Below are positions 28,926-55,775 of a DNA stretch of 64,000 nucleotides, piece by piece. The stretch covers positions 124,001-188,000 of the forward strand of contig NZ_CP031727.1 in NCBI RefSeq assembly GCF_008806955.1. The letters run 5' to 3'. A program made the position numbers and the translations under genes. The notes beneath the pieces were generated by a model. That model was not told the origin of the DNA. It ran no database searches and was given only the letters and a program-made list of their open reading frames with translations. Position 1 is the first letter of the stretch, and every line of letters begins with the position of its first letter. Source of the stretch: Cellvibrio sp. KY-YJ-3. Lineage in GTDB: Bacteria > Pseudomonadota > Gammaproteobacteria > Pseudomonadales > Cellvibrionaceae.

Positions 28926-29384
28926 TTACCATTGCTTAAACGGTAACCGCACCAAATTCGAATTGAAGTAGCGTAGGTCTGCAGTTACCTCTTCACCTAC
29001 CCACTCAGGATTAGTAAACGATGTGTTCTCTGAGGGCAACTCTATCTCTGCCACCACCAAGCCCTGATTCTCGCCGAGGAATTCATCGACCTCCCACACA
29101 AAACCCGCATAGGTAATTTTGCGACGATATTTTTCAATCAAGGGTTGCTCGCACATGAGCAGCAACTCGCGTGCATCTGCCAGCGGAATCTCATATTCAA
29201 ACTCCGCCCGGCTCATACCTTGTGTTACACCTTTAATCGTGAGAAATGCCTGCTCGCCAGCGATACGCACCCGCACCGTGCGCGCTTTATCACTAGAGAG
29301 ATATCCCTGGCTGTAAAACACGGCGGGTGCCTCACGCCATGCATCACCCACTACTAAAAACTTGCGTTCAATTTCAATTGCCAT
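28926..29384 (-). CDS. CYTH-domain protein (triphosphatase-like)
   Basis: A 152-aa CYTH domain protein. The N-terminal ExExK signature is EIERKF, followed by basic residues in VRVRIAG and FLTIKG, and acidic partners in FEYEIPLADA and VAEIELP. These line the tunnel that binds triphosphate. Most small bacterial members are inorganic triphosphatases; adenylate cyclase activity is a rarer option. I start at the ATG at 29384: the upstream extension is the read-through of a terminator hairpin and is not protein-like. It may be preceded by its own promoter within 29385-29470. Confidence 0.88.
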   Translation of the reverse strand: MAIEIERKFLVVGDAWREAPAVFYSQGYLSSDKARTVRVRIAGEQAFLTIKGVTQGMSRAEFEYEIPLADARELLLMCEQPLIEKYRRKITYAGFVWEVDEFLGENQGLVVAEIELPSENTSFTNPEWVGEEVTADLRYFNSNLVRLPFKQW

Positions 29385-29473
29385 AGGGTTTGCCTGCAGA
29401 TGTGAAAGGGACACACATACTAACACCGGGCAGTGAGTGGTAAAAAATGAGAGGAATAACGGATAGCGGGAAT

Positions 29474-29503
29474 AAAAAAATGGCGCAGTCTTGCGACTGC
29501 GCC
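29474..29503 (-). terminator. Terminator of the candidate small RNA
   Basis: On the minus strand GGCGCAGTC-GCAA-GACTGCGCC, a 9-bp perfect stem with a GNRA tetraloop, then A and seven T. This is the strongest intrinsic terminator in the locus. It is separate from the receptor gene terminator 200 bp upstream. Confidence 0.88.
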
Positions 29504-29604
29504 GAATCATCAACAGCGACGATATACAACAAAAAAGATGGAGATCAATGTCATTGCCAGAACCCAAAGTCACCAACAGCAATACTCTGGTAAATCATTG
29601 CAAT
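29474..29604 (-). ncRNA. Candidate small RNA of the maltodextrin regulon
   Basis: A transcript of about 130 nt is predicted between a regulon-type promoter (TTGAGC-17-TAGGAT, 29611-29639) and a strong terminator. It carries no convincing gene: two tiny overlapping frames (15 and 14 codons) lack ribosome-binding sites. The promoter has the same two-operator layout and the same 5-nt operator-to-minus-35 distance as the starch genes. It could be a base-pairing RNA tuned to maltodextrin supply, or a terminated leader of the CYTH gene downstream. It rests on pattern only; no homology or expression evidence is available here. Confidence 0.5.
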
Positions 29605-29610
29605 GGAGTC

Positions 29611-29688
29611 ATCCTAGGGGTTATCGCCGCAGCGCTCAATGGACTACATACGTATTCATGCGCCACTGCAGGCTACATACGTATGTAG
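29611..29688 (-). promoter_or_regulatory. Twin CATACGTATG operators plus promoter for the candidate small RNA
   Basis: The distal operator is the perfect 16-bp palindrome CTACATACGTATGTAG (29673-29688). The proximal one reads TGAATACGTATGTA on the minus strand (29645-29658), centres 29 bp apart. After 5 nt comes TTGAGC (29639-29634), a 17-nt spacer and TAGGAT (29616-29611). There is no protein gene start within the expected distance. Confidence 0.65.
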
Positions 29689-29701
29689 TCATTTTTTATG
29701 C

Positions 29702-29729
29702 AAAAAAAACCGCACATTTTCATGTGCGG
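29702..29729 (-). terminator. Terminator of the pullulanase-receptor unit
   Basis: On the minus strand CCGCACAT-GAAA-ATGTGCGG followed by eight T, 25 bp after the TonB receptor stop codon. Confidence 0.9.
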
Positions 29730-29753
29730 CCGATGCGTTTTCACCGTCAGATG

Positions 29754-32747
29754 TTAGAAGGTGTAGTTAGCCCCCATGTAGAAGGTGCGACCAAACCATT
29801 GCAGGGTACGCGTCAACTCTTCGTCAAACATGTAGCTGCGGTTAGGTTCGTTGGTGAGGTTGCTGATGGAGAACACCAGATCCAAACCATTATCAAACTT
29901 ATAAGCCGCTTGATAATCCAGCAGCGTTTCCGGTGCATAGATAATCGGTTGCAGGTTAATGTTGCGTGTCTCGCCCACAAACGAATCCTGGAAGGTGGTG
30001 GATAAACGGGTTTCAAAGCCGCCGTAGCTGTAGAACAGGGTGAAGTTGGCGGATTTCTCTACCAAGCCAGGGAATGGCAAAGTAGCGCCGGTATTTACAC
30101 CCTCTACCGGGTTGGCCACGGAGATCTCCGAGTCGGTCAGCGAGTAACTTGCACTCACCCCCAGCCCTTGCCAGAGGTCAGGCAGGAAGTTGAAGGTTTG
30201 GGTATAAGACACTTCCAGACCGCGAATGAAGCCGCCGTCCAGGTTGTTGATAGAGGTGGAGTAGTCACCGTTTTCCACTTCAACTTCAGTATCCAAACCG
30301 CCAATATTCACTACCCAGGTATCCGGCACATCGAATCCTGCTGCACGGAAATCAAAGTTTTCGTAAGTAATATCCTGAATGAATGATTTGATTTCACGGT
30401 GATACACGGCCACCACAAAGGCACCGTTGGTATCCGGCATGTAGTACTCGTAGGACAAGTCAACCTGATCGGCGATGAAAGGTGTCAGGAATGGCGACGT
30501 ATTACTACCGTAGTTGAACACCGGAGTAGTCTCGTTTTCTACCGTAACCGAACCTTCGGAATCCGGGGCAGCCAAGCGATTGATCGGTGGACGGGAAAGT
30601 ACACGCGCCAATGCCAGACGCAGCTGGTTATCTTCAGCCACGCTGTAATTCAGGTTGAGCGATGGCAGGTTGTGGCTGTATTCGGTGCCGAGTGTTTGGT
30701 AGGCGTAGTCCGTTTCCGAGGTGCCTATCTCGTCAAAAATCTCCACTGCACCAGCATCAACATTACCGTTTACGTTCACCAGGGCAACGCTGGTCTGTTC
30801 CGTGCGTACATGGCGCAAACCTATGTTACCCACCAAGTCGCGATCAAACAGCGTCGTTTCCAAATTGGTCTGCAGATAAATTGCATCCACATTTTCATCG
30901 ATGTCCGAGCGTTGTTTCATCGACCAATCACGACCTTCTGTCCAACGCGCTTTGGGGTCGATAGAACGCGGGGAATAGACCTTGCCATTTTGGCCGAGCA
31001 CTTCTACACCATCGTCCAAAACCAGCCCTTGGCTCACCGCTTCCTGGATAATCTTGTCGCCATCGATTGCGAGGAATGATGGGAAATGGGAGAAGTCACC
31101 TTTCCAATTCACTACATCCGAATTGCCGGTGTTGATTTCCAAGGGGAAATCGCGGTCGTATTGCGCGAGATCACCATAAACAAACACTTGGCGACGGTCG
31201 GTATGATTGCGTTCTGAACGGCGCACACCAGCTTCTACCGACTTGATTAACGGCAGCTCCACTTCGTATTTAACATCCAGGCGAACCGCACTGATTTTGT
31301 CATCATTGATGCGCGGGTAGCGCTCGTAGTTGGTCATGCGCAGAGTACTGACGCCATCAGCACCGTAAGACGCATAATCACGGCTCAAGCTAACGCTGGG
31401 TACATTGATGCCATCGAGCAAGTAGGTCATGGACTGATCCGGGTCGCGCTCAAAAGTCGCGCCGCCGGGAACCGGGTTTTCAATGGGGCGATAGAGGTGC
31501 GCACGCACTACCCCGTCCGCTTGAACGCCAGAGGCATCCGAGTGCGACAGGTCAAGCGCAACAGTCAACGCATCCTGTTGCCATTCAAGGTTCAAACCGC
31601 CGGAGAGCAATTCGTTCGTTTGGGTAACGTCGTTGCTATTGACCTGCAAATTCAAAGAGTCTGGCGCAGCGTCGTCCACCGCGAATTCACCACCAATCAC
31701 CGCCTGGTTTTCCCACAGCACCAGGCTGTTTGTCAGTGCGTTGCGCAGCGGCTGGATACGGAAGCCCCGCGAGTAACTGTCGGACTCAAATTTGGAATAG
31801 AACACATCCGACTGGATCGACAAGTTGTCGGTAGGTTCAAACTGGATTGCCGCCACGTAACCATCGCGAGTCTCTTCACCACCGGTTTGGAATAATTCAA
31901 AACCTTCAGCCATAAACACTTCTGATGGACGATTGGCGGTGGGTACTGCATTGAAATTTTCATCCACAATCGTGGTATCCAATCCCTTTTCATCAACTAA
32001 AGAATAGGGGTTGGCTTCGTAGTTGTACTGTTCAAAACGGGTTGCGGAACGCGGCTGCACCAAACGGGCGTAGCCCAGTGCCACACCGAGTTTGTCATCA
32101 AACAGTTTTTTCTGGAACGAGAGCGACAGACGCTGGCCGTAAGGCTCTGCGCCGTAAATATCGTCAGCCTGATCGTTGTAGCTGCCGCGCACACCCACAA
32201 CAACTTTTTGATCTTCCGTCATTTCCAGGGGATTGGCGGTTTTCAATTCGACCGAACCGGCGACACCACCCTCAATCAGTGATGCCTTGGGCGACATATA
32301 GACTTCTACCGATTGGATCAGCTCTGAGGGGAACTGGCTGAATTCCATGGCGCGGGTACCGTTGGGCGATACCTGCTCGCGGCCATTCAGGGTGGAGAAG
32401 ACAAAACCTTCACCCATACCGCGCACCTGAATGGTACCGGCCTGACCGCCCGAACGAGTCACGGTAATACCGGGTACACGACCAAGGGCATCGGCGATGG
32501 ACACATCGGGCAGACCACCGAGGTCGGCGGCAGAAATCGCCTGCACCACGGTGTCGGCGTTACGTTTGGTTTCAATACTGTTCTGAATGGAGCGGGCATA
32601 ACCCGTCACCATCACTTCTTCAACCAGCGAGGGGTTTTGTGGCCCGGCATCGGCGTCAGTTTCCTGAGCCAGCAACGCGGGAGACAGGGACGCCATTGCC
32701 AATGCAGAAACAACAGCAGCCAGCGGCTTTAAAGTAAATGTTTTCAT
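29754..32747 (-). CDS. TonB-dependent receptor, maltodextrin type (receptor 1)
   Basis: A 997-aa outer membrane receptor. Signal peptide (cleavage near LLAQ), then a TonB-box-like stretch EEVMVTGYARSIQNSIETKR, a plug domain (VSIADALGRVPGITVTR, QVRGM, SPKASLIEGGVAGSVEL), and a 22-strand barrel ending in an aromatic residue (FYMGANYTF). The plug motifs are those of the long receptor family abundant in Xanthomonas, Caulobacter and Cellvibrio for carbohydrates. It should import maltodextrins across the outer membrane with TonB-ExbBD energy. It lies 81 bp downstream of the pullulanase gene, same strand, with a stable hairpin between, so the two are probably one operon. It is paralogous to receptor 2 at 45.2-48.0 kb. 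Confidence 0.93.
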   Translation of the reverse strand: MKTFTLKPLAAVVSALAMASLSPALLAQETDADAGPQNPSLVEEVMVTGYARSIQNSIETKRNADTVVQAISAADLGGLPDVSIADALGRVPGITVTRSGGQAGTIQVRGMGEGFVFSTLNGREQVSPNGTRAMEFSQFPSELIQSVEVYMSPKASLIEGGVAGSVELKTANPLEMTEDQKVVVGVRGSYNDQADDIYGAEPYGQRLSLSFQKKLFDDKLGVALGYARLVQPRSATRFEQYNYEANPYSLVDEKGLDTTIVDENFNAVPTANRPSEVFMAEGFELFQTGGEETRDGYVAAIQFEPTDNLSIQSDVFYSKFESDSYSRGFRIQPLRNALTNSLVLWENQAVIGGEFAVDDAAPDSLNLQVNSNDVTQTNELLSGGLNLEWQQDALTVALDLSHSDASGVQADGVVRAHLYRPIENPVPGGATFERDPDQSMTYLLDGINVPSVSLSRDYASYGADGVSTLRMTNYERYPRINDDKISAVRLDVKYEVELPLIKSVEAGVRRSERNHTDRRQVFVYGDLAQYDRDFPLEINTGNSDVVNWKGDFSHFPSFLAIDGDKIIQEAVSQGLVLDDGVEVLGQNGKVYSPRSIDPKARWTEGRDWSMKQRSDIDENVDAIYLQTNLETTLFDRDLVGNIGLRHVRTEQTSVALVNVNGNVDAGAVEIFDEIGTSETDYAYQTLGTEYSHNLPSLNLNYSVAEDNQLRLALARVLSRPPINRLAAPDSEGSVTVENETTPVFNYGSNTSPFLTPFIADQVDLSYEYYMPDTNGAFVVAVYHREIKSFIQDITYENFDFRAAGFDVPDTWVVNIGGLDTEVEVENGDYSTSINNLDGGFIRGLEVSYTQTFNFLPDLWQGLGVSASYSLTDSEISVANPVEGVNTGATLPFPGLVEKSANFTLFYSYGGFETRLSTTFQDSFVGETRNINLQPIIYAPETLLDYQAAYKFDNGLDLVFSISNLTNEPNRSYMFDEELTRTLQWFGRTFYMGANYTF

Positions 32748-39756: not shown

Positions 39757-41271
39757 TTACATAACCTGTTGCTTCGCAACCAAATCATTCAATTGTTCGC
39801 GGTGCGAACTAAAGTTTAATGCACAGCGGCTAATAAAATTCTCAATATTTTCCATTTTATATTTATGAGCAACTTCATTGCCTGGCAAAAGCTGATCCTG
39901 TGTTGGGAATAGACCATACCCGGCAAGCAAACAATGCCATGAAGCAGATGGGTAATAACAACCAATTTTCTGCCGCTCAATTTCCTGAGTCAAATTCCCA
40001 CCACCAACCCATACCTGCAGCAGTTCACGCAAGGAATCTGAAAGTGAATTGTTGTTAGCATTGTCGCGCCAATATTGGGTGTCCGTGCGGGAGTTCACCC
40101 GATAGTGACATACAATGTAGTCGCGCACCGCTTCAAAACGTTGGTTAATAGAACGATTAAAGTTCGCCTGCTCACGATCGGTAAAATCCCCCAACTCAAT
40201 AGCTTCCGCAAACCCCAAGACTGTTTCCTGCACCAAATGCAATGCCGTTGCCTCCAGCGGCTCAATAAACCCTTGAGACAAGCCAACTGCCAAGCAGTTT
40301 TTAGCCCAATGATGCTGCAAACGCCCCACTTTCATTTTTAAATGTCGTACTGGGACATCTTTATCTAGCAAGTTCAATTTTTGTCGTAGTTCGGTCTCAG
40401 CCATATCAGCTGATAAATAATTCGAGCTGTAGACATAACCATTCCCAATACGATTAACTAGAGGAATATTCCACATCCAGCCGGCGTTTAATGCAGTAGC
40501 GGTGGTCTGTGGGGTTATATCCATAGCAGCAGAGGTAGGCATAACAACTGCCGAATCATTAAATAAATTACTAGAAAAGTTAATAAAAGGTACTTTTAAC
40601 GCTTGTTGAATTAGCACGCCGGCAAAACCGGAACAATCGATAAATAAATCCGCAGCGAGAGGCTGCTGATTCTCTGTCAACAAGTGGCTTATATATCCTT
40701 GTGCATCCAGTTTTACTTCCGTTATTCGTGCATCTATGTGCGCCACTCCCAACTTCGCCGCGTGTTGTTTTAAAAACAACCCTACCAGCGAAGAGTCAAA
40801 ATGATAACCATAGCCTAGCTGGAAAGGAAAATGGTGCGCAGGTTTTGGCCCTAGCTGGTGTTTGGCAAGATAGGTCGCCAGGAAAAATTTATCCGGGTGA
40901 GCATAAACATCAGCGCCCTTGCGTCGCACAAAACAATTATAAAAAAAGGCAGGTGCCGAATAATCATCCGGCTGCGCAGGAAAAGGATGAAAGTAATTTT
41001 CAAAACCTGGTTTGGTTGACCAGTTGCAAAAGCGGATCCCGGTCTTATAAGTTGCATTACAGGCTGGCATCCACTCTGCTTCGGCAATCTCCATATAATC
41101 AAAAAATGATTTTAACTGTGGTGTTGACCCTTCACCCACGCCAATAATACCGATATCACTAGACTCAACTAGCGCAATTTCTACGGAATATTTAGCCCAG
41201 CGCTTGGCAAGAATATTGGCCGCCATCCAACCGGCAGTACCACCACCCAAAATTACAATTTTTTTGATCAT
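39757..41271 (-). CDS. Tryptophan halogenase-like flavoprotein
   Basis: A 504-aa protein of the flavin-dependent tryptophan halogenase family. It has the FAD motif IVILGGGTAGWMAA at the start, the catalytic Lys (K76 in NATYKTGIRF), the WxWxIP motif (WMWNIP) and EPLEAT with the conserved Glu. All hallmark residues are kept, yet its setting is a starch operon. Similar genes sit beside TonB receptors in Xanthomonas and Caulobacter, with no known product. No flavin reductase lies in the window. I prefer the ATG at 41271; a GTG 9 bp upstream is possible. It follows the alpha-amylase gene by 22 bp. Confidence 0.9.
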   Translation of the reverse strand: MIKKIVILGGGTAGWMAANILAKRWAKYSVEIALVESSDIGIIGVGEGSTPQLKSFFDYMEIAEAEWMPACNATYKTGIRFCNWSTKPGFENYFHPFPAQPDDYSAPAFFYNCFVRRKGADVYAHPDKFFLATYLAKHQLGPKPAHHFPFQLGYGYHFDSSLVGLFLKQHAAKLGVAHIDARITEVKLDAQGYISHLLTENQQPLAADLFIDCSGFAGVLIQQALKVPFINFSSNLFNDSAVVMPTSAAMDITPQTTATALNAGWMWNIPLVNRIGNGYVYSSNYLSADMAETELRQKLNLLDKDVPVRHLKMKVGRLQHHWAKNCLAVGLSQGFIEPLEATALHLVQETVLGFAEAIELGDFTDREQANFNRSINQRFEAVRDYIVCHYRVNSRTDTQYWRDNANNNSLSDSLRELLQVWVGGGNLTQEIERQKIGCYYPSASWHCLLAGYGLFPTQDQLLPGNEVAHKYKMENIENFISRCALNFSSHREQLNDLVAKQQVM

Positions 41272-41293
41272 AAATTTCACATCAAAGAATGTA

Positions 41294-54518: not shown

Positions 54519-55559
54519 TTATTTCTTAAATGGTTTTGCACCGCAGGAACTGCGCACCATTAATTTTGCCGGCAACAACATAGATTCCGGCCGCTCCCCA
54601 CTCACCAGCTTTAACAAATTCTCTACCAATAATTCACCCGCCAATTGCGTATCCTGCTGCACCGTGGTGAGTGCCGGATGGGTGTAGGCCGCCATGGGAA
54701 TATCATCAAAACCCATAAGCGCAACATCCTGCGGCACATGCATGCCCGCTTCTTCCAATGCCGTCATGGCACCAATGGCAATCAAGTCGCTCGCACCAAA
54801 TACCGCATCAAAAGGTACGCGACGCTGCAGTAAACTCATGGTCGCTTTGTAGCCTTCCGCTTCCGAGGTTTCAGCGGCGACTTGCAGTTTCGGATCTACC
54901 GCAATACCGGCTTCCTGCAACGCTTTACAAAAGCCGTGATAGCGGTCAGCAAATTCAGGGCTGTGCTCGGATACGTCACCGAGAAAAGCGATATTTTTAT
55001 GCCCGAGTGCAATTAAATGTTGGGCGGCATTGTAGGCGCTGTTGAAATTATCGCAGCCAATGGAGACGCCGGGTTGCCCTTCAAGTACCGGCCCCCAGGT
55101 AATAAAATGCGCGCCGACTTCAGTGAGATAAGTCAGTTTTTTTACAAAGGTTTCGTAATCGCCATAACCCAAAAAGATAATGCCATCAGCGCGATTGGCA
55201 TCCTCGTAATCTGCATGCCAGTCCTCACTAAATTGCTGGAAGGAAATCAATAAGTCAAAGCCGCGGTTGGCCGATGCACGGGTAATACTGCCCACCATCG
55301 AGAGGAAAAAAGGGTTGATTAAGGAATTACCGGTGCCGTGGTGTTCGCACAATAACAAGGCGATAGTTTTGGTTTGTTGTGAACGCAAACTGCTCGCATT
55401 TTTGTCCACTTTGTAATTGAGTTCGCGTGCAATTTGCTGCACTTTCAACCGTGTTTCTTCATTGACCAGCGGGCTATTGCGTAATGCGCGCGACACGGTC
55501 GATTGGGATACGCCCGCGCGGTAGGCAATATCAAAGGATGTGGGTTTATCGTCTTTCAA
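54519..55559 (-). CDS. LacI-family regulator of the starch/maltodextrin locus
   Basis: A 346-aa LacI/GalR regulator. The helix-turn-helix is FDIAYRAGVSQSTVSRALRN, followed by the hinge helix around NASSLRSQ and a periplasmic-binding-protein-like sensor domain. The start is TTG with GAGGG about 9 nt upstream; no ATG exists before the helix-turn-helix. It is the only LacI-type gene in the window, and the locus carries many palindromes with the central CG pair usual for this family, so it is the best candidate to bind CATACGTATG. Its own 216-bp upstream gap has no copy of the site, so it is probably not autoregulated through it. Repressor or activator mode is unproven. Confidence 0.9.
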   Translation of the reverse strand: MKDDKPTSFDIAYRAGVSQSTVSRALRNSPLVNEETRLKVQQIARELNYKVDKNASSLRSQQTKTIALLLCEHHGTGNSLINPFFLSMVGSITRASANRGFDLLISFQQFSEDWHADYEDANRADGIIFLGYGDYETFVKKLTYLTEVGAHFITWGPVLEGQPGVSIGCDNFNSAYNAAQHLIALGHKNIAFLGDVSEHSPEFADRYHGFCKALQEAGIAVDPKLQVAAETSEAEGYKATMSLLQRRVPFDAVFGASDLIAIGAMTALEEAGMHVPQDVALMGFDDIPMAAYTHPALTTVQQDTQLAGELLVENLLKLVSGERPESMLLPAKLMVRSSCGAKPFKK

Positions 55560-55775
55560 CTGGGGTACCCTCGCTGTGGTTCCATTATTTGTTGTAATTG
55601 TTGTGGTGGACTTTCTTAGACGCTTAAGTTCGCATTGCGTTAGGGGGCTGATACTACAGCAACCCCCTTTTTACGTACAGCGGAGGGGAAAGGTGCACTA
55701 GGGGTGCTGGGCAATTTGGGCATATTTCAGCGTAGTCAGCTCGCGGTGCAGATTGCCGGGAAAATGACGAAATAC

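Follow-up and report, generated by a model that had tools for sequence, protein, structure and literature searches.

Why does a promoter that carries the operators of a starch regulon stand in front of no protein-coding gene? This question is raised by positions 29474–29688 of a 64,000-nucleotide stretch of Cellvibrio sp. KY-YJ-3 (NZ_CP031727.1, positions 124,001 to 188,000; hereafter the window), where two operators and a promoter on the minus strand are followed by about 130 nucleotides (nt) and a terminator. From our comparative analyses, we conclude that this unit is probably, with a chance of roughly three in four, a free-standing small RNA (sRNA) gene and a non-coding member of the Cellvibrio maltodextrin/starch regulon, the core of which would pair in trans. 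A free sRNA had been proposed in the initial annotation, and the reading is supported by the conservation of promoter, 3' box and terminator next to downstream genes that vary. The sequences also support a new, genus-restricted sRNA family of the sugar-regulon kind, with the messenger RNA (mRNA) of the regulator itself as a candidate target. The unit has the traits of a trans-acting sRNA gene, namely its own promoter, an intrinsic terminator with a U tail, and a conserved short putative seed within an otherwise variable RNA. Its features are as follows.

29676..29685, minus strand: distal operator, exact CATACGTATG
29647..29656, minus strand: promoter-proximal operator, AATACGTATG inside TGAATACGTATGTAG, with one mismatch to the 10-mer
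29634..29639, minus strand: -35 hexamer, TTGAGC
29611..29616, minus strand: -10 hexamer, TAGGAT, after a spacer of 17
29474..29604, minus strand: predicted small RNA of about 130 nt, its 5' end estimated from the -10 element
29525..29543, minus strand: CUCCAU and a U-rich stretch upstream of the box, moderately conserved, a possible Hfq site
29509..29524, minus strand: conserved box UAUCGUCGCUGUUGAU, with the core UCGCUGUU at 29519–29512 as predicted seed
29482..29503, tail to 29474, minus strand: intrinsic terminator GGCGCAGUC-GCAA-GACUGCGCC, then AUUUUUUU

Along the minus strand, the order is thus ACTACATACGTATGTAG; ATGAATACGTATGTAG; TCCA; TTGAGC; 17 nt; TAGGAT; about 130 nt; GGCGCAGTC-GCAA-GACTGCGCC; A; and seven T. 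The initial annotation had described two CATACGTATG operators placed exactly 5 nt before the promoter. This holds for the sequence of the distal operator but not fully for the proximal one, and the distance is 5 nt if the flanking TA is counted as part of the operator but 7 nt from the 10-mer. The promoter TTGAGC-17-TAGGAT was located as described (29639–29634, spacer 17, 29616–29611), and its TANNNT geometry is kept in all 11 homologous units introduced below. A strict consensus promoter scan did not list it, and its support therefore comes from conservation. The terminator scan detected both the terminator of the predicted RNA and that of the upstream receptor gene; the former has a stem of nine pairs (29503–29482), a GCAA loop, then A and seven T, in agreement with the GNRA-loop terminator with seven T that had been claimed. 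No open reading frame of more than 15 codons both starts and stops within the predicted RNA, which bears out the description of about 130 nt without a credible gene; two frames start within it and exit through the terminator, a 52-amino-acid frame ending at 29374 and the frame of the CYTH-domain gene. With Rfam 15, no family reached its gathering cut-off in positions 29400–29760, and two sub-threshold matches (opposite strand) scored no more than 18.7 bits where the cut-off is 60.

Homologous units are present in other Cellvibrio genomes. A DNA search of 37 genomes gave matches in five, this genome included; G007, G018 and G004 hold the unit, and what matched in G017 was an operator region that belongs to a different gene. 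From the 3' part of four members a covariance model, R1, was built; in 21 genomes of the genus it picked up three members outside its training set (G015, G010 and G013; 40–44 bits), and its weaker matches include G017, G009 and G003, where two upstream operators, the same core and the terminator are present. The box of G006 is weak; with its two operators and its GCGCAG terminator, this unit is treated as a candidate only. For G003, G006, G009 and G017, the operators formed part of the grounds for accepting them as members. The unit is present in 10 of the 21 Cellvibrio genomes (this genome, G003, G004, G007, G009, G010, G013, G015, G017 and G018), with G006 as one weaker candidate. A second covariance model, R2, was built from the ten members, whose scores of 62.6–79 bits are high by construction as these are its training members; in the same 21 genomes, everything else reached at most 33.1 bits, the score of G006, and a terminator without operators in G002 reached 33.0 bits. 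The initial annotation had suggested a covariance search in Cellvibrio genomes and had made its reading depend on conservation of promoter plus terminator in relatives; the promoter, the terminator and also the 3' box are kept in 10, possibly 11, of the 21 genomes.

The search was also extended beyond the genus. The 18-mer box occurs in 48 stretches among 84,980 species genomes, a search that may leave out records near the window. Three of these loci have an operator at most 260 nt upstream, a downstream T run and GCGCAG, and all three (C. mixtus J3-8, Cellvibrio sp. 79 and one metagenome genome) belong to this RNA family. A core-terminator pattern, which allowed a spacing of at most 9 and so misses members with 10 such as G015, recovered this genome and two unrelated matches among 390 genomes of the order. 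R1 gave matches with an expectation value of at most 0.01 in 29 of 194 genomes of the order, this genome included; five R1 loci in four other genomes (L011, L039, L012, L013 and L014), the order-level matches at which operators were checked, were inspected and none has the full box. A search for two exact operators within 30 nt gave 0 matches in the 21 Cellvibrio genomes, because one site of each pair has a mismatch.

Within the unit, conservation is concentrated at the promoter and at the 3' end. The 16-nt box UAUCGUCGCUGUUGAU is identical in seven species (this genome, G004, G007, G010, G013, G015 and G018), and in G003, G009 and G017 AGU comes after an unchanged core UCGCUGUU, so that the core is invariant in 10 of 10 aligned members. 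The terminator arm GCGCAG of the family terminator GCGCAG...CUGCGC is likewise invariant (10/10), and its 3' arm has a single change, which gives a G-U pair. The distance from core or box to stem is 9 or 10 nt in all aligned members; it is 9 by alignment in this genome, the unit of which also contains an earlier TTGCTGTT copy. The 5' half of the RNA is variable and cannot be aligned across the family, and the whole RNA measures about 70–155 nt depending on the species, with 5' ends estimated. At four-fold degenerate sites in the neighbouring genes, the other species share the base of this genome in 0.37–0.55 of cases (0.42–0.55 for the seven species with the identical box), which indicates strong selection on the box at the RNA level. 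A hairpin around the box has 2–9 pairs, not clearly more than in shuffled sequences. Upstream, TGAATACGTATGT of the proximal operator is found in 11/11 units, the next two bases differing in G003 and G004, and a second operator is found in 8/11. The TTG of TTGNNN stands at a constant distance from the operator, 4 nt after it, in all 11 units, and TANNNT follows 17 or 18 nt after TTGNNN, again in all 11 (5.7% per shuffled sequence). The operator-4 nt-TTG layout also precedes the cyclomaltodextrinase gene of this genome ('own163705').

The next question is whether the unit belongs to one of the genes beside it, which are:

29754..32747, minus strand: TonB-dependent receptor gene (TIGR01782), the upstream neighbour
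29708..29731, minus strand: terminator of the upstream TonB receptor gene, separating it from the RNA unit
28926..29384, minus strand: CYTH-domain gene, the downstream neighbour, probably not the purpose of the promoter

As had been stated, the receptor gene has a terminator of its own, found by the scan at 29731–29708, and the CYTH gene starts beyond the second terminator, its conserved ATG at 29384 lying about 90 nt past the T run. All 11 units lie inside starch clusters, beside differing genes. The order receptor, RNA, CYTH is found in this genome, G007 and G015; G010 (by likeness of sequence) and G013 share this order but have a Calx-beta/LVIVD protein gene between RNA and CYTH. G018 has a GH13-type gene, the RNA and CYTH, with its receptor elsewhere in the chromosome, and in G004 the RNA stands between a halogenase-family gene and a pullulanase gene. 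In G003, G009 and G017, the RNA is followed by a second operator pair, about 240–320 nt past the terminator, that belongs to the next gene, pullulanase, with the receptor next in G003 and G009 (the contig of G017 ends first). In G006, the neighbouring pullulanase gene is convergent. Receptor orthologues exist also in genomes without the unit, and inspection of the regions past the receptor end in eight genomes showed the unit in none. G020 has receptor, terminator and CYTH without operator or RNA unit, and G014 has receptor, terminator and a Calx-beta/LVIVD-type gene (by eye), again without operator or RNA unit; both are natural empty sites. An operator pair past the receptor in G012 apparently lies upstream of a protein gene, and the receptor terminator of G019 carries GCGCAG by chance. 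The unit thus behaves as a cassette that may occupy this place, be missing, or stand at another point of the starch cluster. Because neighbours differ and the unit is cleanly absent elsewhere, a leader of the CYTH gene is unlikely, and a free-standing sRNA gene is the best reading.

What would such an RNA act on? The best candidate target is the ribosome-binding site ACAGCGAGGG in the mRNA of a LacI-family regulator encoded in the window:

55571..55577, minus strand: predicted target site ACAGCGA, which abuts the GGG in the ribosome-binding region of the LacI-family gene and can pair with UCGCUGU in the box
54519..55559, minus strand: LacI-family regulator gene with a TTG start, the candidate MalR that may read the operators

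UCGCUGU lies in the invariant core of the RNA. ACAGCGAGGG stands just upstream of the regulator start in this genome, G004, G015, G013, G010 and G003; the corresponding leader reads AUAGCGAGG(G) in G007, G017 and G009 and AAGCGGCGGGG in G018. When the box of each species is set against its own regulator leader, 7–10 contiguous pairs (G-U included) form in 10/10 species with the RNA. The pairing is exact in six, has one G-U pair in G007 and one or two in G009 and G017, and has two in G018, where the register is shifted. G007 has a second 7-base match of equal score in the same stretch of its leader. Among species without the RNA, at least seven pairs are found in one of five readable regulator leaders, that of G019, which keeps ACAGCGA; G014 has AGAGCGA, G001 has ACCGCGA, and G012 and G016 are diverged. 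The contrast of 10/10 with 1/5 gives a Fisher probability of 0.004, relatedness being ignored. The mean pairing score is 18.0 for the regulator against 9.8–14.6 for 17 other gene groups. Boxes with permuted columns (the same permutation across species) reach 18.0 in 0 of 2000 cases, and 12 of 1200 permutations bring the best of the 18 gene groups to that score. This shared complementarity to the start signal of the likely starch regulator suggests a feedback loop.

Several observations count against the interpretation as an sRNA that acts on its regulator. The unit is missing in 10 of the 21 genus genomes, several of which have the receptor (the assemblies of G020, G008 and G002, which lack an R1 match, are 77–85% complete). 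Covariation is thin, with changes on both sides at just the two end pairs of the terminator stem. With exact ACAGCGA alone, the contrast between species with and without the RNA falls to 6/10 against 1/5 (Fisher 0.28). The target site is present in G019, which lacks the RNA, and at a different place in the regulator leader of G016 there is an 11-base run rich in G-U pairs. In single genomes, 16 of 261 gene starts score as high, and the regulator is among the 261 in three genomes. GCGAGGG is also retained in G001 and G014, which means that a part of the site is conserved for translation alone. Screens made before the regulator lead gave no other target. The target test was moreover post hoc: the regulator surfaced after a 7-mer count, and the stretch of leader to be scored and the box length were chosen later. 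As that stretch was picked after the match had been seen, we put pairing with the regulator mRNA at about even odds.

The start-region screens covered the starch neighbourhoods. Receptor or catabolic mRNAs, the targets suggested in the initial annotation, received no support in these start-region screens, and the regulator mRNA is the best-supported candidate instead. The complement of a 14-mer with at most one mismatch gave 31 matches in seven genomes, seven of which are the unit itself, against 19 for a reversed control. Inspection of 23 of the 24 remaining matches revealed two orthologous pairs (G004/G018), neither convincing: the first lies deep in coding sequence, and the second falls 385 nt past a frame start in one of the two species and has no sense frame in the other. 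The complement of a 9-mer gave 314 matches in three genomes against 218 for the reversed control. Duplex energies over the neighbourhoods were noisy with many bulges, the w23015 group recurring in four genomes. Ungapped pairing with many G-U pairs over 18 ortholog groups (-120 to +120) placed w24030, w19666, w28926 and w23015 above all 60 shuffled boxes; these were rejected, being mostly G-rich coding stretches or sites at varying places, and none exceeded 14.6 in the stricter test in which the regulator scored 18.0. The core 8-mer has three matches in 278 start regions, all one histidine-pathway coding motif, and was also discarded. The 7-mer ACAGCGA occurs in 8 of the 278, more than any of 60 shuffled words; three of the eight are the histidine-pathway motif and three are the regulator gene, one for each of the three genomes whose screened stretches contained it.

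If the sRNA is real, its main target might be another RNA, such as a porin, receptor or catabolic mRNA or a titrated sRNA, with the regulator match being due to chance or of minor importance. We regard this as less than evenly likely, but it is the alternative to be taken most seriously. It is favoured by the post hoc nature of the regulator test (about 1% family-wise), by the site kept without the RNA in G019, by the restriction of the start-region screens to starch neighbourhoods, and by the known sRNAs MalH and CrfA (see below), which act on porins or as a sponge. Against this, the regulator ranks first among the 18 gene groups by a clear margin, and the site lies exactly at the ribosome-binding region in ten species.

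The remaining alternatives dispense with a free sRNA. The unit could be a terminated leader (attenuator), with a promoter that serves the downstream gene, a terminator that is conditionally bypassed and the RNA as aborted leader. A gene in the same direction does start about 55–155 nt past the terminator in 7 of 11 units. In G004 (L220; RNA at 2816675–2816779, minus strand), the terminator is separated from a pullulanase start by about 55 nt, in which no other operator lies, so that this RNA could also be a leader with read-through, a further point against a free-standing gene. The identity of the downstream gene varies, however (CYTH in four, Calx-beta/LVIVD in two, pullulanase in one), the next gene is more than 500 nt off with its own operators in three units and convergent in the candidate G006, CYTH stands without the unit in G020, and the terminator is the sole structure shown by the consensus fold of the RNA family. 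A leader is therefore improbable in our view. Even less credence is given to a very small protein or leader peptide, for which the box itself provides an argument: it can be read as TAT CGT CGC TGT TGA (Tyr-Arg-Arg-Cys-stop) in seven species and as ...CGC TGT TAG (Arg-Cys-stop) in three, the stop staying in place despite the change from TGA to TAG, and an in-frame ATG, GTG or TTG lies upstream in nine of the ten clear members (G009 and G010 judged by eye). The resulting frames, however, have 8–34 codons with varying upstream residues, five of the nine starts are GTG or TTG, and G010 has no in-frame start. The third positions of both Arg codons are constant across the seven species, a sign that selection acts on the RNA. 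A decayed promoter, the remnant of a lost starch gene whose operators and terminator survived by chance, would fit the patchy occurrence of the units and the rearrangement of starch clusters between species, but operators, -35, -10, box and terminator stand at fixed distances in at least ten species with strongly diverged silent sites, and we consider this explanation very improbable indeed.

Returning to the free-standing sRNA gene, sequence comparison establishes the unit, its conservation, its independence of neighbouring genes and the complementarity of its core; we infer its transcription and induction, its pairing in the cell and the direction of the loop, and propose the following mechanism. 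A LacI-type regulator, presumably MalR-like (its identity and its sign are what we infer here), would act through the one or two operators of the CATACGTATG type that lie immediately before the -35 element. As the centre of the promoter-proximal operator lies about 47 bases upstream of the estimated RNA start, a LacI-type protein bound there could stimulate the polymerase or stand in its way. Once maltodextrins are sensed, the polymerase would make a short transcript (about 130 nt here) that stops at the strong terminator. The working part would be the 3' module, in which the core UCGCUGUU is held 9–10 nt ahead of the terminator hairpin; the core would base-pair in trans, Hfq probably being bound at the U-rich tail, and the pairing would block the ribosome-binding site of the regulator and hence its translation. 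If the regulator is a repressor, the induced RNA would lower the repressor further, and the double-negative loop would sharpen and hold induction; in the case of an activator, the loop would be self-damping. Slightly short of an even chance, in our estimation, is the full hypothesis of a genus-specific RNA family with a working part of about 50–70 nt that covers the ribosome-binding site of the regulator and gives a sharper or longer starch response, its cassette having moved around starch clusters and its site and RNA tending to be kept or lost together. If this is true, species with the RNA would respond to starch more sharply or for longer than species without it. Because inducer and target are both predicted, the target lying in the regulator itself, and because nature provides variants in ten species as well as absences, such a loop between transcription factor and sRNA is directly testable in this family. 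As a separate observation, the regulator leader (55571–55620, minus strand) has a CA-rich (ACAACAAUUACAACAA-like) stretch in eight of ten species, partly missing in G003, G009 and G017 (by eye), a possible site for Hfq or for pairing to the U-rich part of the sRNA.

To our knowledge, few regulatory RNAs of polysaccharide degraders that rely on TonB receptors have been characterised. In the RyhB-Fur and OmrA/B-OmpR loops of enterobacteria, an sRNA under the control of a transcription factor acts back on the mRNA of that factor. The logic proposed here is the same, with other regulators, signals and sequences, and the back-action in Cellvibrio is predicted from complementarity only. MalH of Escherichia coli is an sRNA that is cut from the malG mRNA and made together with the maltose regulon; through its effects on porins and on the sRNA MicA, it has been proposed to promote the uptake of maltodextrins (PMC8081044). 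The Cellvibrio RNA would resemble MalH in its role as an sRNA co-produced with a maltose regulon, but the Cellvibrio unit has its own operator-controlled promoter and belongs to a starch system of the LacI-type/TonB-receptor kind; any sequence relation to MalH was compared through Rfam only. A MalH-like release from the 3' end of a transporter mRNA was considered and rejected on the sequence, as the receptor terminator and a separate operator-promoter lie between. CrfA of Caulobacter crescentus, a bacterium with many TonB receptors, is described as linking carbon supply to TonB receptor levels, as induced by carbon starvation and as a sponge of the SisA-D RNAs (PMC12559287). The likeness lies in an sRNA in a bacterium rich in TonB receptors; as described there, CrfA differs as a starvation-induced sponge, and there is no sign of common ancestry with the Cellvibrio RNA. 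The predicted MalR regulon of Shewanella, with a LacI-type regulator, a MelB-like transporter, a TonB-dependent outer-membrane transporter and starch enzymes, resembles the Cellvibrio cluster, although the passages concerned describe protein genes only (PMC2996990). Searches of open-access papers, assessed from their titles and the first lines of their abstracts, brought up no work on an sRNA of Cellvibrio, and the text available for a C. japonicus starch RNA sequencing paper contains neither 'small RNA' nor 'non-coding' (PMC10714805). Deposited C. japonicus RNA sequencing data cited in that paper cover starch (GSE206866) and glucose (GSE90955).

The operator motif of the sRNA unit is shared with starch genes of what would be the MalR-type regulon of the host. 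The window contains 10 CATACGTATG-type sites at one mismatch or fewer against 1.8 expected, and 11 of the 29 ATACGTAT sites of the whole genome fall inside 20.6 kilobases of the starch cluster, where an even spread would give 0.13. Upstream of the unit, on the same strand, are the TonB-dependent receptor (TIGR01782) and a pullulanase gene. Farther along the cluster are genes for a cyclomaltodextrinase, a tryptophan-halogenase-family protein, GH13-type enzymes, a second receptor and a GH15 glucodextranase, and a sugar symporter whose best matches are GPH models, under their curated cut-offs. The tryptophan-halogenase-family gene (39757–41280, minus strand) sits among operator-controlled starch genes, and in G004 a gene 77% identical to it adjoins the RNA. 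A gene for a PEP-CTERM sorting-signal protein (TIGR02595; 55776–56690, minus strand) adjoins the LacI-family regulator gene. Two ATACGTAT sites spaced by 30 bases (G000:C1:2490851 and 2490881), at a great distance from the starch genes, may mark another regulated promoter.
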